A stretch of 64,000 nucleotides of DNA from Corallium rubrum. Its lineage: Eukaryota; Cnidaria; Anthozoa; Scleralcyonacea; Coralliidae. Numbering within the stretch: position 1 is the first letter of the stretch; every line of letters begins with the position of its first letter. This document shows, piece after piece, positions 3,043 to 63,817 of this stretch. Both the position numbers and the translations under genes were made by a program. Under the pieces are notes generated by a model. It had not been told where the DNA came from, did not search any database, and saw nothing but the letters and a program-made list of their open reading frames with translations. Where the stretch lies: the NCBI GenBank assembly GCA_964035015.1, contig OZ035997.1:87648483-87712482 (forward strand), in the 5' to 3' direction.

Positions 3043-3467
<425 letters not shown>

Positions 3468-9040: not shown

Positions 9041-9303
<263 letters not shown>

Positions 9304-43775: not shown

Positions 43776-44020
43776 ATGTAAGGATTTTGGGTGAAGGAAA
43801 ATTCCAGTGTAGAATATATACATTTTAAGAACGCGAGTTCTGTATATAATAAGGTGGAAATGCCAGGAGAGAATTGGGTATATTATAAGTAATATTGGGC
43901 ATTTCACTCGATTACATAGCATGTTCTAAGGATTTTGGGTGAAGGAAAATTCGAGTGTAGAATATATACATTTGTAATCGAGTGAAATGCCCAATATTAC
44001 TTATAATATATCCAACAGGT
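43776..44020. mobile_element. Foldback repeat family, copy without SINE
   Basis: Contains GGATTTTGGGTGAAGGAAAATT...GTAGAATATATACATTT at both 43777 and 43929. GGTATATTATAAGTAATATTGGGCATTTCACTCG (in part, 43878-43911) is inverted at 43980-44018. It matches 46505-46827 but lacks the ~130-bp tRNA-derived insertion found there. Confidence 0.7.
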
Positions 44021-46160: not shown

Positions 46161-46504
46161 ATACTTGTGCCTTTATCAGGGTGATAACAGCGGGTGATAA
46201 AAACGATATGTCCCGCTGTTCTGTATTTGCCCCGCCATATCTCCCGCTGTCCTGCGCTGCGAGTCAAACACGGCGGACTCGCGATTCGAGTCAGTCAAGG
46301 TGGTTGCCGGATCATAGCTGAGAAGAAAAATGACAACACAATAAAGAAAACGTCAAGTGTCCTACGTGTCTTAAGAAGTTGCTTAAAGAGGCACATGTTA
46401 CTGAGAACTTATTAAAACGTTTTTATTTTTGCATTAATACGGTACTTTATATTGTTGTTTGATCGGCATTACTGATAAAGGTACAAGTATGTGATAAACA
46501 TGTT

Positions 46505-46827
46505 CTAGGGATTTTAGGTGAAGGAAAAATCGAGTGTAGAATATATACATTTTAAGACCAAACCGGGACAAGTTGCGAAAAATGCAACTACACAGGCCTT
46601 CCGGCAGGAATTGAACCCACGACCTTGCGATTCTAGTGCAATGCTCTGACCACTGAGCCATGGAGGCCGTTGCCGAGAGCTTGATCGTGAGTTCTGTATA
46701 CATGAAGGTGGTAATGCCAGGAGAGAATTGGGTTTATTAGAAGTAATATTGGGCATTTCACTCGATTACATAGCATGTTCTAGGGATTTTAGGTGAAAGA
46801 AAATTCGAGTGTAGAATATATACATTT
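46505..46827. mobile_element. Foldback repeat family, copy carrying a SINE
   Basis: Same family as 43776-44020: GGATTTTAGGTGAAGGAAAA...GTAGAATATATACATTTTAAGA at 46510, GTGAGTTCTGTATA, GCCAGGAGAGAATTGGGT, AATATTGGGCATTTCACTCG, and a second GGATTTTAGGTGAAAG at 46788. It is interrupted at about 46559-46687 by the tRNA-derived segment. Confidence 0.75.
46595..46668 (-). ncRNA. tRNA-derived SINE head or tRNA pseudogene
   Basis: The minus strand folds as a 74-nt cloverleaf: acceptor GGCCTCC / GGAAGGCC (one bulge), A box TGGCTCAGTGGTCAGAGC (46660-46643), anticodon stem-loop TTGCA-CTAGAAT-CGCAA, and B box GGGTTCAATTCC (46618-46607). The A and B boxes are near-consensus RNA polymerase III promoter elements. 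The acceptor mismatch, and its place inside an insertion within a foldback repeat, favour a SINE over a working tRNA gene. Confidence 0.65.
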
Positions 46828-46832
46828 TATCA

Positions 46833-47400
46833 GGTTATTACATTCATGACTCGGTGATATCATTATTTTCAGGTTATTACATTCGTGACTCGGTGATATC
46901 AGTTTTATCGCTTTCAGGACGATATCATAATTGTCCCTCTTTCGCTGCGCTCACTCGTGACAAGAACAATATCGTCCCTCACGCGATAAAACTGACATCA
47001 CCTCGCCCCAACACCGCTGCCAAACGTTTTGCGCATGCGCGACGTCCGAGCTCGTCCCAGACTCGTCCTCGGAAAAAGAGCGGGAAAACACTGAAATATT
47101 TGGATTTGTCCAAGAGTCCGACACAAACGTTAAAATCATAAGCATGCTACCAAAAAGATAAGGTAGGTAATTTGTACATGGCTTCCTTGTCAATATTGTA
47201 ACATATTCTGAATTTACCCCTTCGTAATTTTCTTTACCCTTTTTATAAAACACAAATGAATAGTCGAGTCTTACTTGGTCTTCACTGTCTGGTAGTTGTC
47301 GCCACGGCTAGTTCCCACTTCTCTTGCAATGTTTACCCAGCGAATTCACACATGCGCAAACGTTTGGCAGCGGTGTTCCTCGCACCTCATGTGATAACCT
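46833..47400. mobile_element. MITE-like inverted-repeat region beside the array
   Basis: AGGTTATTACATT(C/T)GTGACTCGGTGATATCA occurs twice in tandem (46835 and 46871). AACACCGCTGCCAAACGTTTTGCGCATG (in part, 47009-47036) is inverted at 47350-47380 (CATGCGCAAACGTTTGGCAG), and the right end GTGATAACCT mirrors the left AGGTTAT. Non-coding. Confidence 0.6.
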
Positions 47401-47410
47401 ATACATATAG

Positions 47411-47439
47411 CTATATCTATCTATCTATCTACCTACCTA
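47411..47439. repeat. (TATC)n(TACC)n microsatellite, left flank of the array
   Basis: CTATCTATCTATCTACCTACCTA ends in the TA (47438-47439) that directly borders the array. The same TACC repeat resumes after the right end at 63715. Confidence 0.95.
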
Positions 47440-47693
47440 CAATCATTGACAAAATTAGTTGGAACATGTACACGAAAGTAAGACATTTCACAATGTTTTT
47501 ATATCCCCCCATCCCCCCTATTCAATGTTGGCTTTCCATCAACGGAAATGTGATGAGAACCTATAGAGAACAAATCACGAATGTTTTGTGGTGATACAAC
47601 ATTGTTTAGGGGGAGGGGGGGTCGAGTAATGTAGGCGGAGTGATGCAAAACATGTTAATGTTGCTTTTGTTACAACAATTTTGTCAATGATTG
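47440..47693. repeat. T module 1 (left outer end)
   Basis: 254 bp with inverted ends CAATCATTGACAAAATT / AATTTTGTCAATGATTG. Subterminal C-tracts near 47506-47518 (CCCCCCATCCCCCC) face a G-tract near 47629-47642 (G5AG7), followed and preceded by CAATGTTG in inverted order, so the whole module could fold. It is bordered by TA on the left and by TCTGA of core 1 on the right. The G-tract length equals that of module 5 only. Confidence 0.92.
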
Positions 47694-47865
47694 TCTGAAA
47701 ATGATGGTATCTTTGTATTAACGTTTAACCTTTAAAATTTAACTAAATGTATGCGCTAATGTTAAGAAACTGCTTTACAAATAAAGTGCTAGCATTCCTC
47801 TTTAAAATTATCAAAATTGATTATATTGGATAAATTAAATGACGTCACAATGAGTTCTTTCAAAA

Positions 47866-48963
47866 ATGGTGTTCAAAGGACGACTTACGGCCTTGCAATG
47901 CGCACACGCACTTGTGTTGGCTCAGCAAGGGGGATACTCTCTTGCAAAGATTGCCTACAAGACGAAAATGTCGAGAACAAGTGTTTGGCGACTTCTACAT
48001 GCAGAAGAAATTGAAAGGGGAAAAAAGGAAAGAAAGCAGCCGGGGAAAAAAGTTGGCAGACCTCAGGTTATGACAGCGCGTGATAAACGGAAACTTAAAA
48101 GAGCTATTGCGAAAATCCGCCAACACAATCCAAATTTTACTGTTATGGACGTCGTGAAGACAAGTGGAATCAGTCTTGATACCGCCCATTACAGGACCTT
48201 TTTAAGACAAATTCGGAAACTGGGATTCCAATTTCAACAAAGTCGTAGAAAGGGGATCCTTACTGCGAAGGATCTAAAGCAACGACGTACATTTGCAAGG
48301 GCAATGTGTGCAAAAAATGCCGATTATTGGACGAAAGACGTGGCATTTTATTTGGACGGAGTATCCTTCATCTACAAAGGAAACCCGATGAGTGATGCGA
48401 TGAAACCAAAGAACAGAGTTTGGCGAAAAAGAAGCGAGGGTCTCGTAGTAACGACGAAAGGAAGTAAAGATCTGGCCGGAGGCAAACGATTGCATCTCAT
48501 TGTCGCCATATCATATGGGAAAGGAGTAATTTTAGCCGAGCCATACGAAAAAATGAACGGAAAATTTTTCGCGCAATTTATAACACGACATTTTCCAAAT
48601 TTGTTCGAAATAGCTGGAAAAGGTGAAACAGATGAGAAAATATTTGTGATGGACAACGACCCTTCACAAACGTCTTCAAAAGCAAGAACATGTTTGGCAG
48701 ACCACGGCATTAGCATGCAAGCCATTCCACCAAGATCGCCAGACCTTAACCCGATTGAGAATATATTCCATGTCGTTAGAAAGCGCATTGAAGCCCAAGT
48801 GAGAAAGAATAACATCACACATCAGACATGGGATGAGTTCTGCAGTGCAGTTAAATACAATATTTGGTCAACGTCTAAAGAGTACACTGATAAGACAATA
48901 TCCAGTATGCCGAAAAGACTAAAGCATATTGTGAAAACTAAGGGTCGACGAACAAAATACTGA
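47866..48963 (+). CDS. Tc1-type DD34E transposase, copy 1
   Basis: 365 residues. The N-terminus has two helix-turn-helix units (residues about 1-48, LTALQCAHALVLAQQGGYSL..IA, and about 70-135), joined by an AT-hook-like GRPQV, the bipartite DNA-binding layout of Tc1/mariner enzymes. The DDE catalytic domain has D164 (FYLDGVSF), D263 (VMDNDPSQTS) and E298 (SPDLNPIENIFH). 34 residues separate the last two, hence DD34E. It should cut at the CAATCATTGAC ends and insert at TA. The start at 47866 puts the first helix at the N-terminus. An AATAAA lies at 49130. It is convergent with Rep, with their stops about 600 bp apart. All catalytic residues are intact. Confidence 0.95.
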   Translation: MVFKGRLTALQCAHALVLAQQGGYSLAKIAYKTKMSRTSVWRLLHAEEIERGKKERKQPGKKVGRPQVMTARDKRKLKRAIAKIRQHNPNFTVMDVVKTSGISLDTAHYRTFLRQIRKLGFQFQQSRRKGILTAKDLKQRRTFARAMCAKNADYWTKDVAFYLDGVSFIYKGNPMSDAMKPKNRVWRKRSEGLVVTTKGSKDLAGGKRLHLIVAISYGKGVILAEPYEKMNGKFFAQFITRHFPNLFEIAGKGETDEKIFVMDNDPSQTSSKARTCLADHGISMQAIPPRSPDLNPIENIFHVVRKRIEAQVRKNNITHQTWDEFCSAVKYNIWSTSKEYTDKTISSMPKRLKHIVKTKGRRTKY

Positions 48964-49558
48964 ACTCACTTACTAATTAAACCGTATCAATATTATCAAC
49001 ACATGTTGTGCAAAACAGCAATTCAATGTTATACATGGTCATAATAATTTGTATTTAATGTAAACTACAACTTGAGAATTAGTGATAACAAATAACCCGA
49101 ATTTCAAAGACTGTATGTGAGTTTGAAGGAATAAACTAATTGTTTTGAAGTTGCCATGCAACTCTGCCGTATTTAATAACGATGGTGTCGTATATCATAT
49201 GCAGTTACTCGTCACTTTATATCAGTGTATATGATGGTAACAAATACATTTTATTAAAAATTTACGGTTAAACAAGCTTTCTTAAATCGAATTATATCAT
49301 ATTAATTCACTTTACCATGGCAAAATCATAATTTTTCATACACTTTACCACACTTTACCACACTTTACCACAAACAGTGTATAATAATAGGATACTTAAT
49401 TTAATTTATAAACACCGCTGTGGTAAAGTGTGGTAAAGTGTGGTAAAGTGTATGAAAAATAATCGTATACCTATGGTAAAGTGTACTCATATGAAACGCT
49501 ACATCATAAGGATTAACATGATGGTTTGGCATTAACACAAAATAGAAAATATAGGAAG
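48964..49558. other. Convergent intergenic region of core 1
   Basis: Lies between the transposase and Rep stops. It contains AATAAA signals for both directions (49130-49135 on plus; TTTATT at about 49249 for minus) and the iteron hairpin. No ORF is supported. Confidence 0.7.
49331..49460. promoter_or_regulatory. Iteron hairpin, putative Rep origin, copy 1
   Basis: A perfect 42-bp inverted repeat (49331-49372 / 49419-49460) with a 46-nt AT-rich loop. Each arm consists of three tandem 10-mers (CACTTTACCA / TGGTAAAGTG). A fourth copy stands outside each arm (49308-49318 and 49473-49484). Direct iterons flanking a stem-loop are the usual architecture of CRESS-type replication origins, where Rep binds the iterons and nicks the loop. 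The loop contains GTGTATAATAATAGGATAC, a possible nick region, but no exact TAATATTAC-type nonanucleotide. Origin function is inferred. Confidence 0.75.
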
Positions 49559-51073
49559 TTATAGCACAATATCTAATATAAGTCGTGCGAAACATGAACC
49601 ACAGGGTTGCACTTCCTTTTGTTCATGCTGGGCAATCTGGCGAGTAAAATTGAAAATTTTCCATCTGACGGCCATCATCTCCGTCTCTCGTTCGTCGATT
49701 TGTCCGTTCTTCACATAAACGATCGGTCGTTTCGAAGTGCAAAAGATTGGTGTATCTCCGTCGAATGTCGTGTCCTTGGCAAAATGGGATTTAGGGGCAG
49801 GTAAATGAACCAGTTGCCCCTCCAACATGAGAAGCAGATCGTGCCACGCTAAAATTTGAGGAGACCACCTGAAGTCATTAAGAAAAACGACTTCAGCGTT
49901 CTCCGCTCCTACCCACGCAAAACTTGTGCATGCCGGATTGGTGAAGGTGTGGTAAATTCTGTTGAGAGGATTTAATAGGAAGGTTTTACCACAATTTGCA
50001 GGTCCCGTCAACATTATGTTCCGGTATTTCCCTCTACCCCTTTCAAGTAGTTCCCTCATTGATTTGGCAAACAGTTCTCGCGGTATGTGGTTGTTCTGCA
50101 GTAGCTGTAACGCACACATCTCCCACTCTCTTTCCGTTTCACAAGTGCATTTTGTGTCATATGCTTCTTTTAGCAAATCTATTCGCGATTTTTTGTTTCG
50201 TTCATTAGTGCGTTCTGCGCTTTCCATCTCCCATGCATTAGTTAGCAGTTCATTCACAACTTTTGTTCCCCGGTTGATGACGAATTCTGCCAAATCACTC
50301 TTCCCATGCCGTTTTTGCATATTAGCAAAAGCTAGCAAAGCATTTCGATTTCGAAGATTCTTTGCTACTATGATCTCCGATACGTCAAATGCACTGAGTC
50401 GTTTCCGCTTCTTCGCCGGCCCTTTCTTCTTCGTATCCGTATCCGAGTTCGACTCATCATCAGTAATGTCGGCGTCTTCTTCATCGCTTGACTTCAGTGG
50501 CATACGTTTCTTTCTGCGTTGTTTGAAAGTTTCGTGGGCTCTCATAGTTGCAGGTCCATTGCTGTTGGTTAAATCTGGGTGGTTGTCGCTTTGTTCGTAT
50601 GCCGTATCTTCTTTCGTAACATACTTCCACGCGGTGAAATAGTTTGCGTGGACGCTTGAGAAATGGACAGATATGCCATGTTTTTTTTGCAATGCTTTCT
50701 TTGAAGGCAACCATCGTTGAATTCTATCAAGCTTCACACAAACATGATAGTGTATTCCCGATTTTTTGTGCAACTCTTTCGAACAACACCATTGTAAAAC
50801 GACTACAGATCGCGCGCAGAAAGAATCAACAATAGCTTCTGCGAAAGATTGTCGTGTGGGAAACTTTTGAGTATCCGCTTGGCTCAAAGTAACCAAATAT
50901 ACCTGACGAACTTCGCGAGTATGTAATTCTTCATCTTCTGATGATGTACTCGACCTATCGCTATTATAACATTGTAATAATTCCATTCCATTCAGTTGAA
51001 TGTGAACTACGAAGACACAGTGGGTGTCACAATGGCAGTGTAATATGAGAAAAGGTGTTATAGTACACGCCAT
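49559..51073 (-). CDS. CRESS-like Rep: HUH endonuclease and SF3 helicase, copy 1
   Basis: 504 residues. The endonuclease domain has motif I VYLVTLSQ (58-65), the HUH motif GIHYHV (H108, H110) and catalytic YVTK (Y151, K154). A linker rich in acidic residues and KKKGPAKKRKR (about 216-226, nuclear-localisation-like) leads to a superfamily 3 helicase: Walker A GPANCGKT (357-364), Walker B VVFLNDF (D400), motif C IFCTSK (444-448) and an arginine-finger candidate R470. In motif C the usual final Asn is Lys. Such proteins nick an origin and drive rolling-circle replication. The first 29 residues are hydrophobic and may not be translated; M30 is an alternative start. Copy 1 has D230, the others H230. 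The nearest relatives (virus, plasmid or eukaryotic captured Rep) cannot be fixed without a search. Confidence 0.93.
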   Translation of the reverse strand: MACTITPFLILHCHCDTHCVFVVHIQLNGMELLQCYNSDRSSTSSEDEELHTREVRQVYLVTLSQADTQKFPTRQSFAEAIVDSFCARSVVVLQWCCSKELHKKSGIHYHVCVKLDRIQRWLPSKKALQKKHGISVHFSSVHANYFTAWKYVTKEDTAYEQSDNHPDLTNSNGPATMRAHETFKQRRKKRMPLKSSDEEDADITDDESNSDTDTKKKGPAKKRKRLSAFDVSEIIVAKNLRNRNALLAFANMQKRHGKSDLAEFVINRGTKVVNELLTNAWEMESAERTNERNKKSRIDLLKEAYDTKCTCETEREWEMCALQLLQNNHIPRELFAKSMRELLERGRGKYRNIMLTGPANCGKTFLLNPLNRIYHTFTNPACTSFAWVGAENAEVVFLNDFRWSPQILAWHDLLLMLEGQLVHLPAPKSHFAKDTTFDGDTPIFCTSKRPIVYVKNGQIDERETEMMAVRWKIFNFTRQIAQHEQKEVQPCGSCFARLILDIVL

Positions 51074-51445
51074 GACACTTTGGAGACAATTTTTAAGGGA
51101 ATACTACGACCTCATTCTGACCATGAATAACAAAAGTAAAGGAGTGCATGGCGTAAGCCATTTCTCGCAATCTGCATTGTGTAAAATACAAGGTAATAGA
51201 CAAAAATATAGTTACCAAGTGCCGTTACGTAAACGCGTGTTCGCAACTTGCCAAGTTATGATTTCTGAATTATGACGAAAATCAATTCAAATGCATAATT
51301 TGTATAATATATTATAAAATATACTTCATTAAAACAATTAGGTGCTTAATTTTCACGTATTCTAAGTAATATTTGATGAAATTATTTAGTTAAAATTTGT
51401 TTTTCTCTTGAAAATAATCTTAAAATTTTGCATAAAAAACTCAGA
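51074..51445. other. Region upstream of Rep in core 1
   Basis: AT-rich, between the Rep start and module 2, so it likely contains the Rep promoter. A plus-strand 83-codon frame overlapping the Rep start has no domain signal. The core ends in ACTCAGA, which mirrors its TCTGA start. Confidence 0.55.
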
Positions 51446-51698
51446 CAATCATTGACAAAATTAGTTGGAACATGTACACGAAAGTAAGACATTTCACAAT
51501 GTTTTTATATCCCCCCATCCCCCCTATTCAATGTTGGCTTTCCATCAACGGAAATGTGATGAGAACCTATAGAGAACAAATCACGAATGTTTTGTGGTGA
51601 TACAACATTGTTTAGGGGGAGGGGGGTCGAGTAATGTAGGCGGAGTGATGCAAAACATGTTAATGTTGCTTTTGTTACAACAATTTTGTCAATGATTG
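51446..51698. repeat. T module 2
   Basis: 253 bp, with G-tract G5AG6. Unlike the outer modules it is bordered by core sequence TCAGA on the left and TCTGA on the right, which extends the inverted repeat by five bases and leaves no TA. Confidence 0.92.
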
Positions 51699-51870
51699 TC
51701 TGAAAATGATGGTATCTTTGTATTAACGTTTAACCTTTAAAATTTAACTAAATGTATGCGCTAATGTTAAGAAACTGCTTTACAAATAAAGTGCTAGCAT
51801 TCCTCTTTAAAATTATCAAAATTGATTATATTGGATAAATTAAATGACGTCACAATGAGTTCTTTCAAAA

Positions 51871-52969
51871 ATGGTGTTCAAAGGACGACTTACGGCCTTG
51901 CAATGCGCACACGCACTTGTGTTGGCTCAGCAAGGGGGATACTCTCTTGCAAAGATTGCCTACAAGACGAAAATGTCGAGAACAAGTGTTTGGCGACTTC
52001 TACATGCAGAAGAAATTGAAAGGGGAAAAAAGGAAAGAAAGCAGCCGGGGAAAAAAGTTGGCAGACCTCAGGTTATGACAGCGCGTGATAAACGGAAACT
52101 TAAAAGAGCTATTGCGAAAATCCGCCAACACAATCCAAATTTTACTGTTATGGACGTCGTGAAGACAAGTGGAATCAGTCTTGATACAGCCCATTACAGG
52201 ACCTTTTTAAGACAAATTCGGAAACTGGGATTCCAATTTCAACAAAGTCGTAGAAAGGGGATCCTTACTGCGAAGGATCTAAAGCAACGACGTACATTTG
52301 CAAGGGCAATGTGTGCAAAAAATGCCGATTATTGGACGAAAGACGTGGCATTTTATTTGGACGGAGTATCCTTCATCTACAAAGGAAACCCGATGAGTGA
52401 TGCGATGAAACCAAAGAACAGAGTTTGGCGAAAAAGAAGCGAGGGTCTCGTAGTAACGACGAAAGGAAGTAAAGATCTGGCCGGAGGCAAACGATTGCAT
52501 CTCATTGTCGCCATATCATATGGGAAAGGAGTAATTTTAGCCGAGCCATACGAAAAAATGAACGGAAAATTTTTCGCGCAATTTATAACACGACATTTTC
52601 CAAATTTGTTCGAAATAGCTGGAAAAGGTGAAACAGATGAGAAAATATTTGTGATGGACAACGACCCTTCACAAACGTCTTCAAAAGCAAGAACATGTTT
52701 GGCAGACCACGGCATTAGCATGCAAGCCATTCCAACCAAGATCGCCAGACCTTAACCCGATTGAGAATATATTCCATGTCGTTAGAAAGCGCATTGAAGC
52801 CCAAGTGAGAAAGAATAACATCACACATCAGACATGGGATGAGTTCTGCAGTGCAGTTAAATACAATATTTGGTCAACGTCTAAAGAGTACACTGATAAG
52901 ACAATATCCAGTATGCCGAAAAGACTAAAGCATATTGTGAAAACTAAGGGTCGACGAACAAAATACTGA
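51871..52969 (+). pseudogene. Tc1-type transposase, copy 2, frameshifted
   Basis: Identical to copy 1 in translation up to AIP at about residue 289. An extra A near 52734 then shifts the frame, ending the protein at 294 residues. D164 and D263 remain but the catalytic E is lost, so this copy should be inactive. The downstream sequence is otherwise unchanged to the normal stop at 52967. Confidence 0.92.
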
Positions 52970-53336
52970 ACTCACTTACTAATTAAACCGTATCAATATT
53001 ATCAACACATGTTGTGCAAAACAGCAATTCAATGTTATACATGGTCATAATAATTTGTATTTAATGTAAACTACAACTTGAGAATTAGTGATAACAAATA
53101 ACCCGAATTTCAAAGACTGTATGTGAGTTTGAAGGAATAAACTAATTGTTTTGAAGTTGCCATGCAACTCTGCCGTATTTAATAACGATGGTGTCGTATA
53201 TCATATGCAGTTACTCGTCACTTTATATCAGTGTATATGATGGTAACAAATACATTTTATTAAAAATTTACGGTTAAACAAGCTTTCTTAAATCGAATTA
53301 TATCATATTAATTCACTTTACCATGGCAAAATCATA

Positions 53337-53466
53337 ATTTTTCATACACTTTACCACACTTTACCACACTTTACCACAAACAGTGTATAATAATAGGATA
53401 CTTAATTTAATTTATAAACACCGCTGTGGTAAAGTGTGGTAAAGTGTGGTAAAGTGTATGAAAAAT
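53337..53466. promoter_or_regulatory. Iteron hairpin, copy 2
   Basis: Same arms and loop as copy 1, without a change I can see. Confidence 0.75.
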
Positions 53467-53564
53467 AATCGTATACCTATGGTAAAGTGTACTCATATGA
53501 AACGCTACATCATAAGGATTAACATGATGGTTTGGCATTAACACAAAATAGAAAATATAGGAAG

Positions 53565-55079
53565 TTATAGCACAATATCTAATATAAGTCGTGCGAAACA
53601 TGAACCACAGGGTTGCACTTCCTTTTGTTCATGCTGGGCAATCTGGCGAGTAAAATTGAAAATTTTCCATCTGACGGCCATCATCTCCGTCTCTCGTTCG
53701 TCGATTTGTCCGTTCTTCACATAAACGATCGGTCGTTTCGAAGTGCAAAAGATTGGTGTATCTCCGTCGAATGTCGTGTCCTTGGCAAAATGGGATTTAG
53801 GGGCAGGTAAATGAACCAGTTGCCCCTCCAACATGAGAAGCAGATCGTGCCACGCTAAAATTTGAGGAGACCACCTGAAGTCATTAAGAAAAACGACTTC
53901 AGCGTTCTCCGCTCCTACCCACGCAAAACTTGTGCATGCCGGATTGGTGAAGGTGTGGTAAATTCTGTTGAGAGGATTTAATAGGAAGGTTTTACCACAA
54001 TTTGCAGGTCCCGTCAACATTATGTTCCGGTATTTCCCTCTACCCCTTTCAAGTAGTTCCCTCATTGATTTGGCAAACAGTTCTCGCGGTATGTGGTTGT
54101 TCTGCAGTAGCTGTAACGCACACATCTCCCACTCTCTTTCCGTTTCACAAGTGCATTTTGTGTCATATGCTTCTTTTAGCAAATCTATTCGCGATTTTTT
54201 GTTTCGTTCATTAGTGCGTTCTGCGCTTTCCATCTCCCATGCATTAGTTAGCAGTTCATTCACAACTTTTGTTCCCCGGTTGATGACGAATTCTGCCAAA
54301 TCACTCTTCCCATGCCGTTTTTGCATATTAGCAAAAGCTAGCAAAGCATTTCGATTTCGAAGATTCTTTGCTACTATGATCTCCGATACGTGAAATGCAC
54401 TGAGTCGTTTCCGCTTCTTCGCCGGCCCTTTCTTCTTCGTATCCGTATCCGAGTTCGACTCATCATCAGTAATGTCGGCGTCTTCTTCATCGCTTGACTT
54501 CAGTGGCATACGTTTCTTTCTGCGTTGTTTGAAAGTTTCGTGGGCTCTCATAGTTGCAGGTCCATTGCTGTTGGTTAAATCTGGGTGGTTGTCGCTTTGT
54601 TCGTATGCCGTATCTTCTTTCGTAACATACTTCCACGCGGTGAAATAGTTTGCGTGGACGCTTGAGAAATGGACAGATATGCCATGTTTTTTTTGCAATG
54701 CTTTCTTTGAAGGCAACCATCGTTGAATTCTATCAAGCTTCACACAAACATGATAGTGTATTCCCGATTTTTTGTGCAACTCTTTCGAACAACACCATTG
54801 TAAAACGACTACAGATCGCGCGCAGAAAGAATCAACAATAGCTTCTGCGAAAGATTGTCGTGTGGGAAACTTTTGAGTATCCGCTTGGCTCAAAGTAACC
54901 AAATATACCTGACGAACTTCGCGAGTATGTAATTCTTCATCTTCTGATGATGTACTCGACCTATCGCTATTATAACATTGTAATAATTCCATTCCATTCA
55001 GTTGAATGTGAACTACGAAGACACAGTGGGTGTCACAATGGCAGTGTAATATGAGAAAAGGTGTTATAGTACACGCCAT
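53565..55079 (-). CDS. CRESS-like Rep, copy 2
   Basis: 504 residues, all HUH and helicase motifs intact. Differs from copy 1 at residue 230 (His instead of Asp, next to the basic linker). Confidence 0.93.
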   Translation of the reverse strand: MACTITPFLILHCHCDTHCVFVVHIQLNGMELLQCYNSDRSSTSSEDEELHTREVRQVYLVTLSQADTQKFPTRQSFAEAIVDSFCARSVVVLQWCCSKELHKKSGIHYHVCVKLDRIQRWLPSKKALQKKHGISVHFSSVHANYFTAWKYVTKEDTAYEQSDNHPDLTNSNGPATMRAHETFKQRRKKRMPLKSSDEEDADITDDESNSDTDTKKKGPAKKRKRLSAFHVSEIIVAKNLRNRNALLAFANMQKRHGKSDLAEFVINRGTKVVNELLTNAWEMESAERTNERNKKSRIDLLKEAYDTKCTCETEREWEMCALQLLQNNHIPRELFAKSMRELLERGRGKYRNIMLTGPANCGKTFLLNPLNRIYHTFTNPACTSFAWVGAENAEVVFLNDFRWSPQILAWHDLLLMLEGQLVHLPAPKSHFAKDTTFDGDTPIFCTSKRPIVYVKNGQIDERETEMMAVRWKIFNFTRQIAQHEQKEVQPCGSCFARLILDIVL

Positions 55080-55451
55080 GACACTTTGGAGACAATTTTT
55101 AAGGGAATACTACGACCTCATTCTGACCATGAATAACAAAAGTAAAGGAGTGCATGGCGTAAGCCATTTCTCGCAATCTGCATTGTGTAAAATACAAGGT
55201 AATAGACAAAAATATAGTTACCAAGTGCCGTTACGTAAACGCGTGTTCGCAACTTGCCAAGTTATGATTTCTGAATTATGACGAAAATCAATTCAAATGC
55301 ATAATTTGTATAATATATTATAAAATATACTTCATTAAAACAATTAGGTGCTTAATTTTCACGTATTCTAAGTAATATTTGATGAAATTATTTAGTTAAA
55401 ATTTGTTTTTCTCTTGAAAATAATCTTAAAATTTTGCATAAAAAACTCAGA

Positions 55452-55704
55452 CAATCATTGACAAAATTAGTTGGAACATGTACACGAAAGTAAGACATTT
55501 CACAATGTTTTTATATCCCCCCATCCCCCCTATTCAATGTTGGCTTTCCATCAACGGAAATGTGATGAGAACCTATAGAGAACAAATCACGAATGTTTTG
55601 TGGTGATACAACATTGTTTAGGGGGAGGGGGGTCGAGTAATGTAGGCGGAGTGATGCAAAACATGTTAATGTTGCTTTTGTTACAACAATTTTGTCAATG
55701 ATTG
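55452..55704. repeat. T module 3
   Basis: 253 bp, G5AG6, with internal TCAGA/TCTGA borders as in module 2. Confidence 0.92.
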
Positions 55705-55876
55705 TCTGAAAATGATGGTATCTTTGTATTAACGTTTAACCTTTAAAATTTAACTAAATGTATGCGCTAATGTTAAGAAACTGCTTTACAAATAAAGTGC
55801 TAGCATTCCTCTTTAAAATTATCAAAATTGATTATATTGGATAAATTAAATGACGTCACAATGAGTTCTTTCAAAA

Positions 55877-56974
55877 ATGGTGTTCAAAGGACGACTTACG
55901 GCCTTGCAATGCGCACACGCACTTGTGTTGGCTCAGCAAGGGGGATACTCTCTTGCAAAGATTGCCTACAAGACGAAAATGTCGAGAACAAGTGTTTGGC
56001 GACTTCTACATGCAGAAGAAATTGAAAGGGGAAAAAAGGAAAGAAAGCAGCCGGGGAAAAAAGTTGGCAGACCTCAGGTTATGACAGCGCGTGATAAACG
56101 GAAACTTAAAAGAGCTATTGCGAAAATCCGCCAACACAATCCAAATTTTACTGTTATGGACGTCGTGAAGACAAGTGGAATCAGTCTTGATACAGCCCAT
56201 TACAGGACCTTTTTAAGACAAATTCGGAAACTGGGATTCCAATTTCAACAAAGTCGTAGAAAGGGGATCCTTACTGCGAAGGATCTAAAGCAACGACGTA
56301 CATTTGCAAGGGCAATGTGTGCAAAAAATGCCGATTATTGGACGAAAGACGTGGCATTTTATTTGGACGGAGTATCCTTCATCTACAAAGGAAACCCGAT
56401 GAGTGATGCGATGAAACCAAAGAACAGAGTTTGGCGAAAAAGAAGCGAGGGTCTCGTAGTAACGACGAAAGGAAGTAAAGATCTGGCCGGAGGCAAACGA
56501 TTGCATCTCATTGTCGCCATATCATATGGGAAAGGAGTAATTTTAGCCGAGCCATACGAAAAAATGAACGGAAAATTTTTCGCGCAATTTATAACACGAC
56601 ATTTTCCAAATTTGTTCGAAATAGCTGGAAAAGGTGAAACAGATGAGAAAATATTTGTGATGGACAACGACCCTTCACAAACGTCTTCAAAAGCAAGAAC
56701 ATGTTTGGCAGACCACGGCATTAGCATGCAAGCCATTCCACCAAGATCGCCAGACCTTAACCCGATTGAGAATATATTCCATGTCGTTAGAAAGCGCATT
56801 GAAGCCCAAGTGAGAAAGAATAACATCACACATCAGACATGGGATGAGTTCTGCAGTGCAGTTAAATACAATATTTGGTCAACGTCTAAAGAGTACACTG
56901 ATAAGACAATATCCAGTATGCCGAAAAGACTAAAGCATATTGTGAAAACTAAGGGTCGACGAACAAAATACTGA
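55877..56974 (+). CDS. Tc1-type DD34E transposase, copy 3
   Basis: 365 residues, same translation as copy 1 with the full catalytic triad. Shares with copies 2 and 4 the silent change ACC to ACA (about 56190) relative to copy 1. Confidence 0.95.
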   Translation: MVFKGRLTALQCAHALVLAQQGGYSLAKIAYKTKMSRTSVWRLLHAEEIERGKKERKQPGKKVGRPQVMTARDKRKLKRAIAKIRQHNPNFTVMDVVKTSGISLDTAHYRTFLRQIRKLGFQFQQSRRKGILTAKDLKQRRTFARAMCAKNADYWTKDVAFYLDGVSFIYKGNPMSDAMKPKNRVWRKRSEGLVVTTKGSKDLAGGKRLHLIVAISYGKGVILAEPYEKMNGKFFAQFITRHFPNLFEIAGKGETDEKIFVMDNDPSQTSSKARTCLADHGISMQAIPPRSPDLNPIENIFHVVRKRIEAQVRKNNITHQTWDEFCSAVKYNIWSTSKEYTDKTISSMPKRLKHIVKTKGRRTKY

Positions 56975-57341
56975 ACTCACTTACTAATTAAACCGTATCA
57001 ATATTATCAACACATGTTGTGCAAAACAGCAATTCAATGTTATACATGGTCATAATAATTTGTATTTAATGTAAACTACAACTTGAGAATTAGTGATAAC
57101 AAATAACCCGAATTTCAAAGACTGTATGTGAGTTTGAAGGAATAAACTAATTGTTTTGAAGTTGCCATGCAACTCTGCCGTATTTAATAACGATGGTGTC
57201 GTATATCATATGCAGTTACTCGTCACTTTATATCAGTGTATATGATGGTAACAAATACATTTTATTAAAAATTTACGGTTAAACAAGCTTTCTTAAATCG
57301 AATTATATCATATTAATTCACTTTACCATGGCAAAATCATA

Positions 57342-57471
57342 ATTTTTCATACACTTTACCACACTTTACCACACTTTACCACAAACAGTGTATAATAATA
57401 GGATACTTAATTTAATTTATAAACACCGCTGTGGTAAAGTGTGGTAAAGTGTGGTAAAGTGTATGAAAAAT
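57342..57471. promoter_or_regulatory. Iteron hairpin, copy 3
   Basis: Arms and loop unchanged from copy 1. Confidence 0.75.
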
Positions 57472-57569
57472 AATCGTATACCTATGGTAAAGTGTACTCA
57501 TATGAAACGCTACATCATAAGGATTAACATGATGGTTTGGCATTAACACAAAATAGAAAATATAGGAAG

Positions 57570-59084
57570 TTATAGCACAATATCTAATATAAGTCGTGCG
57601 AAACATGAACCACAGGGTTGCACTTCCTTTTGTTCATGCTGGGCAATCTGGCGAGTAAAATTGAAAATTTTCCATCTGACGGCCATCATCTCCGTCTCTC
57701 GTTCGTCGATTTGTCCGTTCTTCACATAAACGATCGGTCGTTTCGAAGTGCAAAAGATTGGTGTATCTCCGTCGAATGTCGTGTCCTTGGCAAAATGGGA
57801 TTTAGGGGCAGGTAAATGAACCAGTTGCCCCTCCAACATGAGAAGCAGATCGTGCCACGCTAAAATTTGAGGAGACCACCTGAAGTCATTAAGAAAAACG
57901 ACTTCAGCGTTCTCCGCTCCTACCCACGCAAAACTTGTGCATGCCGGATTGGTGAAGGTGTGGTAAATTCTGTTGAGAGGATTTAATAGGAAGGTTTTAC
58001 CACAATTTGCAGGTCCCGTCAACATTATGTTCCGGTATTTCCCTCTACCCCTTTCAAGTAGTTCCCTCATTGATTTGGCAAACAGTTCTCGCGGTATGTG
58101 GTTGTTCTGCAGTAGCTGTAACGCACACATCTCCCACTCTCTTTCCGTTTCACAAGTGCATTTTGTGTCATATGCTTCTTTTAGCAAATCTATTCGCGAT
58201 TTTTTGTTTCGTTCATTAGTGCGTTCTGCGCTTTCCATCTCCCATGCATTAGTTAGCAGTTCATTCACAACTTTTGTTCCCCGGTTGATGACGAATTCTG
58301 CCAAATCACTCTTCCCATGCCGTTTTTGCATATTAGCAAAAGCTAGCAAAGCATTTCGATTTCGAAGATTCTTTGCTACTATGATCTCCGATACGTGAAA
58401 TGCACTGAGTCGTTTCCGCTTCTTCGCCGGCCCTTTCTTCTTCGTATCCGTATCCGAGTTCGACTCATCATCAGTAATGTCGGCGTCTTCTTCATCGCTT
58501 GACTTCAGTGGCATACGTTTCTTTCTGCGTTGTTTGAAAGTTTCGTGGGCTCTCATAGTTGCAGGTCCATTGCTGTTGGTTAAATCTGGGTGGTTGTCGC
58601 TTTGTTCGTATGCCGTATCTTCTTTCGTAACATACTTCCACGCGGTGAAATAGTTTGCGTGGACGCTTGAGAAATGGACAGATATGCCATGTTTTTTTTG
58701 CAATGCTTTCTTTGAAGGCAACCATCGTTGAATTCTATCAAGCTTCACACAAACATGATAGTGTATTCCCGATTTTTTGTGCAACTCTTTCGAACAACAC
58801 CATTGTAAAACGACTACAGATCGCGCGCAGAAAGAATCAACAATAGCTTCTGCGAAAGATTGTCGTGTGGGAAACTTTTGAGTATCCGCTTGGCTCAAAG
58901 TAACCAAATATACCTGACGAACTTCGCGAGTATGTAATTCTTCATCTTCTGATGATGTACTCGACCTATCGCTATTATAACATTGTAATAATTCCATTCC
59001 ATTCAGTTGAATGTGAACTACGAAGACACAGTGGGTGTCACAATGGCAGTGTAATATGAGAAAAGGTGTTATAGTACACGCCAT
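57570..59084 (-). CDS. CRESS-like Rep, copy 3
   Basis: 504 residues, translation equal to copy 2 (H230). Intact. Confidence 0.93.
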   Translation of the reverse strand: MACTITPFLILHCHCDTHCVFVVHIQLNGMELLQCYNSDRSSTSSEDEELHTREVRQVYLVTLSQADTQKFPTRQSFAEAIVDSFCARSVVVLQWCCSKELHKKSGIHYHVCVKLDRIQRWLPSKKALQKKHGISVHFSSVHANYFTAWKYVTKEDTAYEQSDNHPDLTNSNGPATMRAHETFKQRRKKRMPLKSSDEEDADITDDESNSDTDTKKKGPAKKRKRLSAFHVSEIIVAKNLRNRNALLAFANMQKRHGKSDLAEFVINRGTKVVNELLTNAWEMESAERTNERNKKSRIDLLKEAYDTKCTCETEREWEMCALQLLQNNHIPRELFAKSMRELLERGRGKYRNIMLTGPANCGKTFLLNPLNRIYHTFTNPACTSFAWVGAENAEVVFLNDFRWSPQILAWHDLLLMLEGQLVHLPAPKSHFAKDTTFDGDTPIFCTSKRPIVYVKNGQIDERETEMMAVRWKIFNFTRQIAQHEQKEVQPCGSCFARLILDIVL

Positions 59085-59456
59085 GACACTTTGGAGACAA
59101 TTTTTAAGGGAATACTACGACCTCATTCTGACCATGAATAACAAAAGTAAAGGAGTGCATGGCGTAAGCCATTTCTCGCAATCTGCATTGTGTAAAATAC
59201 AAGGTAATAGACAAAAATATAGTTACCAAGTGCCGTTACGTAAACGCGTGTTCGCAACTTGCCAAGTTATGATTTCTGAATTATGACGAAAATCAATTCA
59301 AATGCATAATTTGTATAATATATTATAAAATATACTTCATTAAAACAATTAGGTGCTTAATTTTCACGTATTCTAAGTAATATTTGATGAAATTATTTAG
59401 TTAAAATTTGTTTTTCTCTTGAAAATAATCTTAAAATTTTGCATAAAAAACTCAGA

Positions 59457-59708
59457 CAATCATTGACAAAATTAGTTGGAACATGTACACGAAAGTAAGA
59501 CATTTCACAATGTTTTTATATCCCCCCATCCCCCCTATTCAATGTTGGCTTTCCATCAACGGAAATGTGATGAGAACCTATAGAGAACAAATCACGAATG
59601 TTTTGTGGTGATACAACATTGTTTAGGGGAGGGGGGTCGAGTAATGTAGGCGGAGTGATGCAAAACATGTTAATGTTGCTTTTGTTACAACAATTTTGTC
59701 AATGATTG
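59457..59708. repeat. T module 4
   Basis: 252 bp, the shortest, with G-tract G4AG6. Internal borders TCAGA/TCTGA. Confidence 0.92.
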
Positions 59709-59880
59709 TCTGAAAATGATGGTATCTTTGTATTAACGTTTAACCTTTAAAATTTAACTAAATGTATGCGCTAATGTTAAGAAACTGCTTTACAAATAAA
59801 GTGCTAGCATTCCTCTTTAAAATTATCAAAATTGATTATATTGGATAAATTAAATGACGTCACAATGAGTTCTTTCAAAA

Positions 59881-60978
59881 ATGGTGTTCAAAGGACGACT
59901 TACGGCCTTGCAATGCGCACACGCACTTGTGTTGGCTCAGCAAGGGGGATACTCTCTTGCAAAGATTGCCTACAAGACGAAAATGTCGAGAACAAGTGTT
60001 TGGCGACTTCTACATGCAGAAGAAATTGAAAGGGGAAAAAAAGGAAAGAAAGCAGCCGGGGAAAAAGTTGGCAGACCTCAGGTTATGACAGCGCGTGATA
60101 AACGGAAACTTAAAAGAGCTATTGCGAAAATCCGCCAACACAATCCAAATTTTACTGTTATGGACGTCGTGAAGACAAGTGGAATCAGTCTTGATACAGC
60201 CCATTACAGGACCTTTTTAAGACAAATTCGGAAACTGGGATTCCAATTTCAACAAAGTCGTAGAAAGGGGATCCTTACTGCGAAGGATCTAAAGCAACGA
60301 CGTACATTTGCAAGGGCAATGTGTGCAAAAAATGCCGATTATTGGACGAAAGACGTGGCATTTTATTTGGACGGAGTATCCTTCATCTACAAAGGAAACC
60401 CGATGAGTGATGCGATGAAACCAAAGAACAGAGTTTGGCGAAAAAGAAGCGAGGGTCTCGTAGTAACGACGAAAGGAAGTAAAGATCTGGCCGGAGGCAA
60501 ACGATTGCATCTCATTGTCGCCATATCATATGGGAAAGGAGTAATTTTAGCCGAGCCATACGAAAAAATGAACGGAAAATTTTTCGCGCAATTTATAACA
60601 CGACATTTTCCAAATTTGTTCGAAATAGCTGGAAAAGGTGAAACAGATGAGAAAATATTTGTGATGGACAACGACCCTTCACAAACGTCTTCAAAAGCAA
60701 GAACATGTTTGGCAGACCACGGCATTAGCATGCAAGCCATTCCACCAAGATCGCCAGACCTTAACCCGATTGAGAATATATTCCATGTCGTTAGAAAGCG
60801 CATTGAAGCCCAAGTGAGAAAGAATAACATCACACATCAGACATGGGATGAGTTCTGCAGTGCAGTTAAATACAATATTTGGTCAACGTCTAAAGAGTAC
60901 ATTGATAAGACAATATCCAGTATGCCGAAAAGACTAAAGCATATTGTGAAAACTAAGGGTCGACGAACAAAATACTGA
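59881..60978 (+). CDS. Tc1-type DD34E transposase, copy 4 (variant linker)
   Basis: 365 residues. A one-base gain and a one-base loss about 40 bp apart (60030-60066) shift the frame and restore it, replacing residues about 55-61 with GKKAAGE in the basic stretch before the AT-hook. T345 is Ile (EYIDK). The catalytic triad is intact. The local change could affect DNA binding. Confidence 0.93.
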   Translation: MVFKGRLTALQCAHALVLAQQGGYSLAKIAYKTKMSRTSVWRLLHAEEIERGKKGKKAAGEKVGRPQVMTARDKRKLKRAIAKIRQHNPNFTVMDVVKTSGISLDTAHYRTFLRQIRKLGFQFQQSRRKGILTAKDLKQRRTFARAMCAKNADYWTKDVAFYLDGVSFIYKGNPMSDAMKPKNRVWRKRSEGLVVTTKGSKDLAGGKRLHLIVAISYGKGVILAEPYEKMNGKFFAQFITRHFPNLFEIAGKGETDEKIFVMDNDPSQTSSKARTCLADHGISMQAIPPRSPDLNPIENIFHVVRKRIEAQVRKNNITHQTWDEFCSAVKYNIWSTSKEYIDKTISSMPKRLKHIVKTKGRRTKY

Positions 60979-61345
60979 ACTCACTTACTAATTAAACCGT
61001 ATCAATATTATCAACACATGTTGTGCAAAACAGCAATTCAATGTTATACATGGTCATAATAATTTGTATTTAATGTAAACTACAACTTGAGAATTAGTGA
61101 TAACAAATAACCCGAATTTCAAAGACTGTATGTGAGTTTGAAGGAATAAACTAATTGTTTTGAAGTTGCCATGCAACTCTGCCGTATTTAATAACGATGG
61201 TGTCGTATATCATATGCAGTTACTCGTCACTTTATATCAGTGTATATGATGGTAACAAATACATTTTATTAAAAATTTACGGTTAAACAAGCTTTCTTAA
61301 ATCGAATTATATCATATTAATTCACTTTACCATGGCAAAATCATA

Positions 61346-61475
61346 ATTTTTCATACACTTTACCACACTTTACCACACTTTACCACAAACAGTGTATAAT
61401 AATAGGATACTTAATTTAATTTATAAACACCGCTGTGGTAAAGTGTGGTAAAGTGTGGTAAAGTGTATGAAAAAT
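61346..61475. promoter_or_regulatory. Iteron hairpin, copy 4
   Basis: Arms and loop unchanged from copy 1. Confidence 0.75.
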
Positions 61476-61573
61476 AATCGTATACCTATGGTAAAGTGTA
61501 CTCATATGAAACGCTACATCATAAGGATTAACATGATGGTTTGGCATTAACACAAAATAGAAAATATAGGAAG

Positions 61574-63088
61574 TTATAGCACAATATCTAATATAAGTCG
61601 TGCGAAACATGAACCACAGGGTTGCACTTCCTTTTGTTCATGCTGGGCAATCTGGCGAGTAAAATTGAAAATTTTCCATCTGACGGCCATCATCTCCGTC
61701 TCTCGTTCGTCGATTTGTCCGTTCTTCACATAAACGATCGGTCGTTTCGAAGTGCAAAAGATTGGTGTATCTCCGTCGAATGTCGTGTCCTTGGCAAAAT
61801 GGGATTTAGGGGCAGGTAAATGAACCAGTTGCCCCTCCAACATGAGAAGCAGATCGTGCCACGCTAAAATTTGAGGAGACCACCTGAAGTCATTAAGAAA
61901 AACGACTTCAGCGTTCTCCGCTCCTACCCACGCAAAACTTGTGCATGCCGGATTGGTGAAGGTGTGGTAAATTCTGTTGAGAGGATTTAATAGGAAGGTT
62001 TTACCACAATTTGCAGGTCCCGTCAACATTATGTTCCGGTATTTCCCTCTACCCCTTTCAAGTAGTTCCCTCATTGATTTGGCAAACAGTTCTCGCGGTA
62101 TGTGGTTGTTCTGCAGTAGCTGTAACGCACACATCTCCCACTCTCTTTCCGTTTCACAAGTGCATTTTGTGTCATATGCTTCTTTTAGCAAATCTATTCG
62201 CGATTTTTTGTTTCGTTCATTAGTGCGTTCTGCGCTTTCCATCTCCCATGCATTAGTTAGCAGTTCATTCACAACTTTTGTTCCCCGGTTGATGACGAAT
62301 TCTGCCAAATCACTCTTCCCATGCCGTTTTTGCATATTAGCAAAAGCTAGCAAAGCATTTCGATTTCGAAGATTCTTTGCTACTATGATCTCCGATACGT
62401 GAAATGCACTGAGTCGTTTCCGCTTCTTCGCCGGCCCTTTCTTCTTCGTATCCGTATCCGAGTTCGACTCATCATCAGTAATGTCGGCGTCTTCTTCATC
62501 GCTTGACTTCAGTGGCATACGTTTCTTTCTGCGTTGTTTGAAAGTTTCGTGGGCTCTCATAGTTGCAGGTCCATTGCTGTTGGTTAAATCTGGGTGGTTG
62601 TCGCTTTGTTCGTATGCCGTATCTTCTTTCGTAACATACTTCCACGCGGTGAAATAGTTTGCGTGGACGCTTGAGAAATGGACAGATATGCCATGTTTTT
62701 TTTGCAATGCTTTCTTTGAAGGCAACCATCGTTGAATTCTATCAAGCTTCACACAAACATGATAGTGTATTCCCGATTTTTTGTGCAACTCTTTCGAACA
62801 ACACCATTGTAAAACGACTACAGATCGCGCGCAGAAAGAATCAACAATAGCTTCTGCGAAAGATTGTCGTGTGGGAAACTTTTGAGTATCCGCTTGGCTC
62901 AAAGTAACCAAATATACCTGACGAACTTCGCGAGTATGTAATTCTTCATCTTCTGATGATGTACTCGACCTATCGCTATTATAACATTGTAATAATTCCA
63001 TTCCATTCAGTTGAATGTGAACTACGAAGACACAGTGGGTGTCACAATGGCAGTGTAATATGAGAAAAGGTGTTATAGTACACGCCAT
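61574..63088 (-). CDS. CRESS-like Rep, copy 4
   Basis: 504 residues, translation equal to copies 2 and 3. Intact. Confidence 0.93.
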   Translation of the reverse strand: MACTITPFLILHCHCDTHCVFVVHIQLNGMELLQCYNSDRSSTSSEDEELHTREVRQVYLVTLSQADTQKFPTRQSFAEAIVDSFCARSVVVLQWCCSKELHKKSGIHYHVCVKLDRIQRWLPSKKALQKKHGISVHFSSVHANYFTAWKYVTKEDTAYEQSDNHPDLTNSNGPATMRAHETFKQRRKKRMPLKSSDEEDADITDDESNSDTDTKKKGPAKKRKRLSAFHVSEIIVAKNLRNRNALLAFANMQKRHGKSDLAEFVINRGTKVVNELLTNAWEMESAERTNERNKKSRIDLLKEAYDTKCTCETEREWEMCALQLLQNNHIPRELFAKSMRELLERGRGKYRNIMLTGPANCGKTFLLNPLNRIYHTFTNPACTSFAWVGAENAEVVFLNDFRWSPQILAWHDLLLMLEGQLVHLPAPKSHFAKDTTFDGDTPIFCTSKRPIVYVKNGQIDERETEMMAVRWKIFNFTRQIAQHEQKEVQPCGSCFARLILDIVL

Positions 63089-63460
63089 GACACTTTGGAG
63101 ACAATTTTTAAGGGAATACTACGACCTCATTCTGACCATGAATAACAAAAGTAAAGGAGTGCATGGCGTAAGCCATTTCTCGCAATCTGCATTGTGTAAA
63201 ATACAAGGTAATAGACAAAAATATAGTTACCAAGTGCCGTTACGTAAACGCGTGTTCGCAACTTGCCAAGTTATGATTTCTGAATTATGACGAAAATCAA
63301 TTCAAATGCATAATTTGTATAATATATTATAAAATATACTTCATTAAAACAATTAGGTGCTTAATTTTCACGTATTCTAAGTAATATTTGATGAAATTAT
63401 TTAGTTAAAATTTGTTTTTCTCTTGAAAATAATCTTAAAATTTTGCATAAAAAACTCAGA

Positions 63461-63714
63461 CAATCATTGACAAAATTAGTTGGAACATGTACACGAAAGT
63501 AAGACATTTCACAATGTTTTTATATCCCCCCATCCCCCCTATTCAATGTTGGCTTTCCATCAACGGAAATGTGATGAGAACCTATAGAGAACAAATCACG
63601 AATGTTTTGTGGTGATACAACATTGTTTAGGGGGAGGGGGGGTCGAGTAATGTAGGCGGAGTGATGCAAAACATGTTAATGTTGCTTTTGTTACAACAAT
63701 TTTGTCAATGATTG
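63461..63714. repeat. T module 5 (right outer end)
   Basis: 254 bp, G5AG7 as in module 1. The left border is TCAGA of core 4; the right border is TA followed directly by the TACC repeat. Confidence 0.92.
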
Positions 63715-63817
63715 TACCTACCTACCTACCTACCTACCTACCTACCTACCTACCTACCTACCTACCTACCTACCTACCTACCTACCTACCTACCTACCTG
63801 CTTACCTACCTACCTAT
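63715..63817. repeat. (TACC)n microsatellite, right flank of the array
   Basis: About 25 TACC units with TGCT and TATC variants at the far end. It is the continuation of the left flank at 47431-47439 and identifies the integration target. Confidence 0.97.

Follow-up and report, generated by a model that had tools for sequence, protein, structure and literature searches.

Cut-and-paste transposons do not copy themselves and rely on host replication or repair. Can such an element carry a replication initiator of its own? This question is raised by a locus in Corallium rubrum, in which genes for a Tc1-type transposase and an HUH-SF3 Rep protein share one repeated unit. The original prediction, made on the 64-kb stretch of DNA analyzed here (the window), took the locus for a hybrid replicon-transposon.

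Array architecture, ends, and flanks

The predicted tandem array of four ∼4.0-kb units was borne out by self-alignment, and its ends lie exactly at positions 47440 and 63714. The array has the structure (R-I)x4-R, in which four I units (3752-3753 bp) are separated and bounded by five R boxes (252-254 bp), so that R plus I make up the ∼4.0-kb head-to-tail period. Because R is present five times, one more than I, the array is terminally redundant. A 17-bp perfect inverted repeat bounds both ends of every R and hence both ends of the array. Within each unit, a Tc1-type DD34E transposase gene is convergent to an HUH-SF3 Rep gene, with intact ORFs for Rep in 4/4 units and for the transposase in 3/4. 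Among array ORFs of at least 120 aa, we found only the transposase, Rep, and frames antisense to both, and no capsid gene. The features are as follows.

47438..47439: left flanking TA, preceded by CTACCTACCTA; target-site duplication in (TACC)n
47440..47693: first R box, at the left array end; its 17-bp inverted repeats occupy 47440-47456 and 47677-47693
47866..48963, plus strand: transposase of unit 1, 365 aa, intact; Pfam DDE_3 at 1.5e-15, Sleeping Beauty at 1.2e-12
49331..49460: 42-bp perfect hairpin of unit 1, between the gene 3' ends; 10-bp repeat three times per arm
49559..51073, minus strand: Rep of unit 1, intact ORF of 504 aa (475 aa from the likely start at 50986)
51446..51698: R box copy 2
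51871..52755, plus strand: transposase of unit 2, 294 aa, frameshifted, E298 lost
53346..53457: hairpin repeats of unit 2
53565..55079, minus strand: Rep of unit 2, intact
55452..55704: R box copy 3
55877..56974, plus strand: transposase of unit 3, intact
57351..57462: hairpin repeats of unit 3
57570..59084, minus strand: Rep of unit 3, intact
59457..59708: R box copy 4
59881..60978, plus strand: transposase of unit 4, intact 365-aa ORF, a short stretch of which is altered
61355..61466: hairpin repeats of unit 4
61574..63088, minus strand: Rep of unit 4, intact
63461..63714: R box copy 5, right array end; outer inverted repeat at 63698-63714
63715..63716: right flanking TA

The R/I makeup, the 17-bp repeats, the TA flanks, and the 42-bp hairpin had been missed earlier.

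On each side, a TA adjoins the array within a (TACC)n microsatellite (one insertion only), and excising the array plus one TA restores uninterrupted (TACC)n. The flanking TA pair is a target-site duplication, as expected of a Tc1-type insertion. Could R alone have been the inserted element? In that case, R would be an independent 254-bp nonautonomous Tc1-type element (MITE) in the microsatellite, R-I circles would have been joined to it by homologous recombination, and the transposase would move R only. R by itself has both inverted repeats and would leave TA flanks, and the inner junctions read TCAGA-R-TCTGA, without TA. However, an exact search found the R end motif nowhere else in the 64-kb window, and a circular R-I replicon would be required anyway. 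Because it too needs this replicon, the account overlaps mostly with the explanation that we favor below, and we consider it improbable in its own right.

The units are 99.79-99.90% identical to one another, and some of the indels between them fall in single-base runs and could be read errors, as might be seen if the assembly had falsely repeated one unit. Against such an artefact, units 1, 2, and 4 have private differences, three of which are base changes, and the array ends are sharp against unique flanks with the TA-bounded microsatellite. We regard an artefact as very improbable.

The original prediction had named beforehand, as one outcome that would count against it, a chance insertion of a Tc1 element into a Rep locus. 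Under this explanation, an endogenous virus-like Rep replicon was hit by a ∼1.5-kb Tc1 element, and the whole was then duplicated. A weak imperfect inverted repeat (24/30 bases) does surround the transposase gene (47723-47752 and 49244-49273), and its score was reached by 0/200 single-base shuffles. The same score, however, was reached by 9/1000 dinucleotide shuffles and by 41/1000 control pairs drawn from host sequence in the window; no TA adjoins this repeat, and there is no exact repeat of at least 12 bases around the transposase alone. It is the entire array that is enclosed by TA-flanked inverted repeats, and the pairing of the two genes probably recurs in four diverged relatives (see below). 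These data leave a nested insertion with little credibility.

The two enzymes and their affinities

A DD34E transposase (D164, D263, E298) had been predicted in every unit. The triad is real and present in three of the four units, but "every unit" was wrong, because the transposase of unit 2 is frameshifted to 294 aa and has lost E298. When the window protein was aligned with 145 relatives among the matches listed (146 sequences), D164 was conserved in 146/146, D263 in 145/146 (one gap), and E298 in 141/146 (two Q, three gaps), and the D-to-E spacing was 34 in 141/141 transposases having both residues. Models suggest that the protein groups with Sleeping Beauty and Mos1. N-terminal helices appear in its model, in keeping with a helix-turn-helix DNA-binding region, and Pfam matched the N terminus to HTH_Tnp_Tc3_2 (7e-6) and to further HTH entries, all below the curated cutoffs. 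Comparison with PHROGs returned 12 weak families for the transposase (best, 0.0012) and 0 families for Rep.

For Rep, the predicted HUH endonuclease-SF3 helicase holds, with H108/H110, Y151, and Walker A (357-364) confirmed and all four copies intact, but its length needs revision. In an alignment of 19 sequences, M30 is nearly invariant (≥90%), and it is the start residue in most relatives, which makes the protein probably 475 aa long rather than 504. The nicking tyrosine and the Walker lysine are conserved in 121/121 aligned Rep sequences, and because these catalytic residues are kept and all four ORFs are open, Rep seems to be under selection. The label "CRESS-like" suits the nuclease domain, which resembles geminivirus and vientovirus Rep when the model is compared with known structures, but not the helicase half, for which AAV Rep, B19 NS1, and papillomavirus E1 rank highest (a ranking, not a phylogeny). 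Judging by these models, Rep would join a geminivirus-like nuclease to a parvovirus/papillomavirus-like SF3 helicase. Weak Pfam matches in the Rep family were to PPV_E1_C (27/65) and Parvo_NS1 (17/65). The single Rep sequence had no match at E 0.01 among solved structures; with the Rep profile, three matches (E 0.1 to 0.75), to a GTPase and two ribosomal proteins, were taken as chance.

To our knowledge, Tc1/mariner elements are compact and encode a transposase alone. The coral element has a DDE_3-type DD34E transposase, an HTH region, TIRs, and a TA duplication, as in the IS630-Tc1-mariner group, but its 4.0-kb unit contains a second conserved gene, and because of this gene we file it as a Tc1 variant and not as a plain Tc1. 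Sleeping Beauty, Mos1, and Bari1 have in common with it the transposase fold, the DDE triad (in the DD34E form of Tc1 types), TIRs, and a TA target; the coral element adds a replication gene and direct R boxes. As in CRESS-DNA viruses (Cressdnaviricota), including the geminiviruses, an HUH domain (HxH and YxxK, the latter naming the HUH nuclease motif) is joined to an SF3 helicase in one Rep. In contrast to these viruses, the element shows no capsid gene among ORFs of at least 120 aa, has TIR/TA ends, and lies in an integrated tandem array, and the helicase half of its Rep ranks nearer to parvo- and papillomavirus proteins. Helitrons, too, are eukaryotic transposons that encode an HUH nuclease-helicase, and rolling-circle copying has been proposed for them. 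Their RepHel protein has an SF1-type helicase, and they have no TIRs and no target-site duplication, whereas the helicase half of the coral Rep matches SF3 structures, TIRs and TA flanks are present, and a separate DDE transposase is encoded.

CRESS origins consist of a hairpin bearing the NANTATTAC nonanucleotide. Unit 1 has this motif twice on its minus strand (50982 and 51374), in neither case within the hairpin. The DNA fold of positions 49270-49520 has a z-score of −13.4, reached by 0/200 shuffles. We consider the hairpin a candidate replication origin or terminator; given its place between the gene 3' ends, it may be a terminator.

Probable recurrence of the pairing and precedents

Do the two genes occur together in relatives? 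Viral and genome contigs scanned with the Rep and transposase alignments gave 48, 7, 19, and 39 pattern matches and 0 confirmed loci, and for this reason adjacency in relatives rests on contigs of equal size. Five Rep/transposase pairs sit on such contigs, of which four are long enough for both ORFs; the fifth (2691) is too short for both and was taken as chance. Each of the four pairs probably lies on one shared contig, with the two genes travelling together, and on this ground the pairing seems conserved. Permutation tests of the size matches were borderline (6/120; 2/24 with the window fixed). A wider and weaker comparison, made with 600 shifts on contigs shorter than 5 kb and without source labels, gave five size matches against a mean of 1.61 (reached by 14/600 shifts) for all contigs, five against 0.94 (2/600) for those of at least 2300 bases, and three against 0.86 (34/600) for those of at least 2800 bases. 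Several Rep contigs near unit size (e.g., 4036, 3706, 3545, and 3414) have no equal-sized transposase contig among the matches listed, and none of 25 further proteins from a transposase profile search (P0241-P0265) was size matched, by eye, to a listed Rep contig. The size spectrum, drawn without a control set, has a second hump at 3.25-4.25 kb (30/72 Rep and 24/77 transposase contigs under 5 kb), which would fit a unit-length element. Plasmids and phages contained no match to Rep (tblastn, Rep query only).

It had also been claimed that no named family shows this pairing. Among the papers listed in searches of open-licence PMC literature, none on a DD34E plus HUH-SF3 element in animals was seen, but a decayed element combining a geminivirus-like Rep, a transposase, and TIRs was described in Tuber melanosporum by Liu et al. 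in 2011 (PMC3198968). It has 37-bp TIRs and no obvious target duplication; its Rep is interrupted, as is one transposase, and the other transposase is truncated (PMC3198968). By description, both elements hold Rep-like and transposase genes within one TIR-bounded repeat. In the portion consulted, the account of the fungal element names no transposase class, direct terminal repeats, or tandem array (PMC3198968). The virus-like repeat DENSOV_HM of Hydra (Repbase, via PMC3198968) invites comparison, again by description, with the weak PPV_E1_C and Parvo_NS1 matches of the coral Rep family; the passage on it mentions no transposase. Teratorn (PMC10175614) and the rotifer Terminons (PMC6431247) are similarly transposable elements joined to replication genes, but they are far larger and have another transposase or a retroelement. 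Terminons can carry Rep proteins, which according to the authors may point to circular intermediates (PMC6431247). Parvo/denso-like sequences of a sea anemone and a starfish, also marine invertebrates, are thought to be host integrations and are covered by piRNA-like RNAs, and the excerpt describing them mentions no transposase (PMC6085071). A ciliate paper offered, in its relevant part, no precedent for Rep (PMC3408717). As far as this literature was searched, the intact enzymes, LTR-like R boxes, TA-flanked tandem array, and repeat-motif hairpin are new.

A possible cycle of excision, copying, and reinsertion

How might such an array arise? With moderate confidence, we favor one reading, namely, a Tc1/mariner-type transposon with its own HUH-SF3 initiator that would form a circle, be copied by rolling circle, and reinsert as a multimer. 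The DD34E transposase would bind the repeats at the R ends, cut there, and insert the DNA at a TA. With R at both ends, as in an LTR element, an excised R-I-R could close into an R-I circle when its two R boxes recombine. Rep would nick this circle, perhaps at the repeat-bearing hairpin between the genes, and drive rolling-circle copying into head-to-tail multimers. Cutting where two R boxes end on the outside, the transposase would then reinsert the multimer as (R-I)n-R, so that copy-out replication would be coupled to cut-and-paste insertion.

Ordinary recombination between R boxes could also build a tandem array. A Tc1-type transposon might have captured Rep and inserted as a single R-I-R, after which R boxes in the chromosome enlarged the array through gene conversion or unequal crossing-over, with Rep taking no part in copying. 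The direct R boxes suit unequal exchange, all units are at one locus, and Bari1 likewise forms an array, of 80 copies, in Drosophila (PMC3828361). This history, however, accords poorly with a Rep that seems selected for (tyrosine and Walker lysine in 121/121, four open ORFs), and capture alone leaves the terminal redundancy of the array unexplained. We judge it rather unlikely. The predicted hybrid replicon-transposon thus stands as to its parts, with both kinds of enzyme and their catalytic residues, Tc1-type ends, TA flanks, and probable joint travel in four contigs, but the array could also have been built by R-box recombination.

A broader form of the rolling-circle reading can be offered tentatively. 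The element may be a DNA-only counterpart of LTR elements, in which R-I-R circularizes, Rep copies the circle, and the DD34E transposase integrates multimers at TA, with free and chromosomal phases alternating widely in marine invertebrates. The truffle case is decayed, but here each gene has intact copies with conserved catalytic residues, so that the idea is directly testable. If true, one insertion of four near-identical copies could reflect copying as a circle followed by pasting into the chromosome, and possession of a replication initiator would free such an element from the dependence of cut-and-paste transposons on the host. It would also provide an intact link between eukaryotic single-stranded DNA replicons, with their geminivirus-, parvovirus-, and papillomavirus-like Reps, and DDE transposons.

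Organization and ends of the array

Window positions 47440-63714 hold a tandem array, (R-I)x4-R, in which R is a box of about 254 bp and I is a 3.75-kb unit body. Self-alignment revealed 99.79 to 99.90% identity between units, confirming the four-unit tandem array of the original prediction.

Features of the array
R boxes, in array order: 254, 253, 253, 252 and 254 bp
I segments, in array order: 3752, 3753, 3752 and 3752 bp
51441-51445 and 51699-51703: TCAGA and TCTGA at an inner R box (equivalent places at the other inner R boxes)
47723-47752 and 49244-49273: weak 30-bp inverted repeat around the transposase gene, 24 matches

Every R opens with CAATCATTGACAAAATT and is closed by the reverse complement, perfect over 17 bases. 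The outer ends of the array abut TA directly: the left flank ends in ...CTACCTACCTA and the right flank starts with TACCTACC.... Once the array and one TA are removed from the window sequence, (TACC)n is unbroken; thus, a TA duplication is the simplest account. At the inner junctions, R lies not between TA but between TCAGA and TCTGA, which add five bases per side and lengthen the inverted repeat from 17 to 22 bp. The remainder of the window holds other repeats and gene-like segments, and the repeat stretch at 46500-47400 is perhaps MITE-like.

Features elsewhere in the window
501-2498 (-): class C GPCR, 7tm_3 and ligand-binding region
3091-3970 and 9044-9303: arrays of 4-bp units
5452-8919: non-LTR retrotransposon-like ORF with endonuclease and reverse transcriptase domains
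near 10108: second ligand-binding-like piece (by eye)
10921-15493: 4.6-kb array of the 8-bp unit AAACAGAC, ~580 copies
25861-28834: hAT-type transposase-like gene in pieces, in several frames, with DUF4371 and hAT dimerisation domains
~46500-46830, left of the Rep/transposase array: repeat with partial copies at 43779-44015
46892-47002: imperfect palindrome
~47000-47390: additional inverted repeat (by eye)

Genes of the unit and a candidate origin

In each unit, a transposase ORF (+) of the Tc1-type DD34E class converges with an ORF (-) for Rep, an HUH-SF3 replication initiator. The predicted convergent pair stands for every unit, with the 504-aa Rep ORF intact in all four, but the 365-aa transposase ORF is intact in only three; that of unit 2 carries a frameshift upstream of the last catalytic residue. 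Because the start in most Rep relatives falls at methionine 30 of the ORF, the protein itself probably has 475 residues rather than the 504 first proposed. The nuclease half of this Rep family matches geminivirus-type Rep, and the helicase half ranks nearest the parvo/papillomavirus types; the family is possibly an old nuclease/helicase chimera. The remaining array ORFs of at least 120 aa were all antisense to transposase or Rep, and none was capsid-like.

Each inner R box separates the 5' ends of a transposase and a Rep gene that diverge from it. Between the 3' ends of the convergent pair is a hairpin, perfect over 42 bp, that closes a 46-base loop, and the 251-base stretch that contains it, folded as single-stranded DNA, gave a z of -13.4 and beat 200 of 200 shuffles. 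The repeat CACTTTACC is present in unit 1 in four copies per orientation, with no copy in the window outside the array. The hairpin with CACTTTACC could be a Rep-binding origin; given its position between gene 3' ends, it also suits the role of a terminator.

Could the unit be a Tc1 element dropped by chance into a Rep locus, the refutation named in the original prediction? Such a nest predicts TA-flanked terminal inverted repeats (TIRs) around the transposase alone. Our check found only the weak 24/30 inverted repeat, without TA. This repeat beats all 200 single-base shuffles but is marginal, as it was matched by 9 of 1000 dinucleotide shuffles and by 41 of 1000 control pairs drawn from the host part of the window.

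Relatives of Rep and transposase

Protein searches at E 1e-3 revealed 609 relatives of Rep and 711 of the transposase (120 of each listed); the Rep search scored the 7997 candidates with most words in common. The sources named among the matches listed were anthozoans, Acropora and Porites for Rep and Dendronephthya, Paramuricea and Exaiptasia for the transposase. No confirmed relative of either protein was found in viral or prokaryotic contigs, nor any Rep relative in plasmid and phage records. The family is probably widespread.

Do the two genes travel together? We took the longest contig per relative and compared the two lists for equal length and same source. Five pairs matched among the matches listed (2671, 2691, 3386, 3915 and 4090), versus a mean of 0.93 and a maximum of 4 when one list was shifted 200 times. 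The 2691 contig lacks room for the two ORFs, so this pair was dropped as chance; on the other four, both fit. If these four pairs are real, Rep and transposase should diverge in parallel. Contigs 4090 and 3915 were the closest pair for both genes (Rep 69%, transposase 68%), followed by the window and contig 2671 (63% and 64%, the 2671 transposase being a 260-aa fragment). Across ten comparisons, the correlation between Rep and transposase divergence was 0.73, a value reached by 389 of 20000 sets of four transposases picked at random, by 6 of 120 label permutations and by 2 of the 24 that keep the window fixed. Among the nearest relatives (18 Rep and 28 transposase contigs), a subset picked post hoc, there were 4 size matches versus a mean of 0.15, reached in 0 of 600 shifts. 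Broader comparisons were weaker: according to the length cut, 14, 2 or 34 of 600 shifts gave at least as many matches as observed. Against pairing, several Rep contigs close to one unit in length had no transposase contig of equal size among the matches listed. Overall, these data make it quite likely that the pairing is conserved in relatives.

Proposed life cycle and known systems

Both enzymes (as genes), a terminally redundant array, TIRs and TA are directly established. In the mechanism that we propose, a circle would form via R, Rep would drive multimer synthesis, and the transposase would cut two R boxes at their outer edges. Alternatively, the last step may be the nicking of a circle in both strands, each at a different edge of a single R, with repair then duplicating R. 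The main rival is that the array arose by unequal exchange between R boxes in the chromosome, and the Bari1 array (PMC3828361) shows that a tandem arrangement is possible for a Tc1-type element.

The original prediction knew of no named family with this pairing. That view needs some qualification: reports on a decayed Rep-plus-transposase element of the truffle Tuber melanosporum (Liu et al. 2011, PMC3198968), on Rep that rotifer Terminons can carry (PMC6431247) and on parvo/denso-like sequences in sea anemone and starfish, thought to be integrations (PMC6085071), make Rep-plus-transposase elements known in principle. Among the open-licence papers listed by our literature searches, none described an intact element that combines DD34E, HUH-SF3, R boxes and a multimer bounded by TA. 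The array element is real, and its proposed life cycle is unusual and testable.
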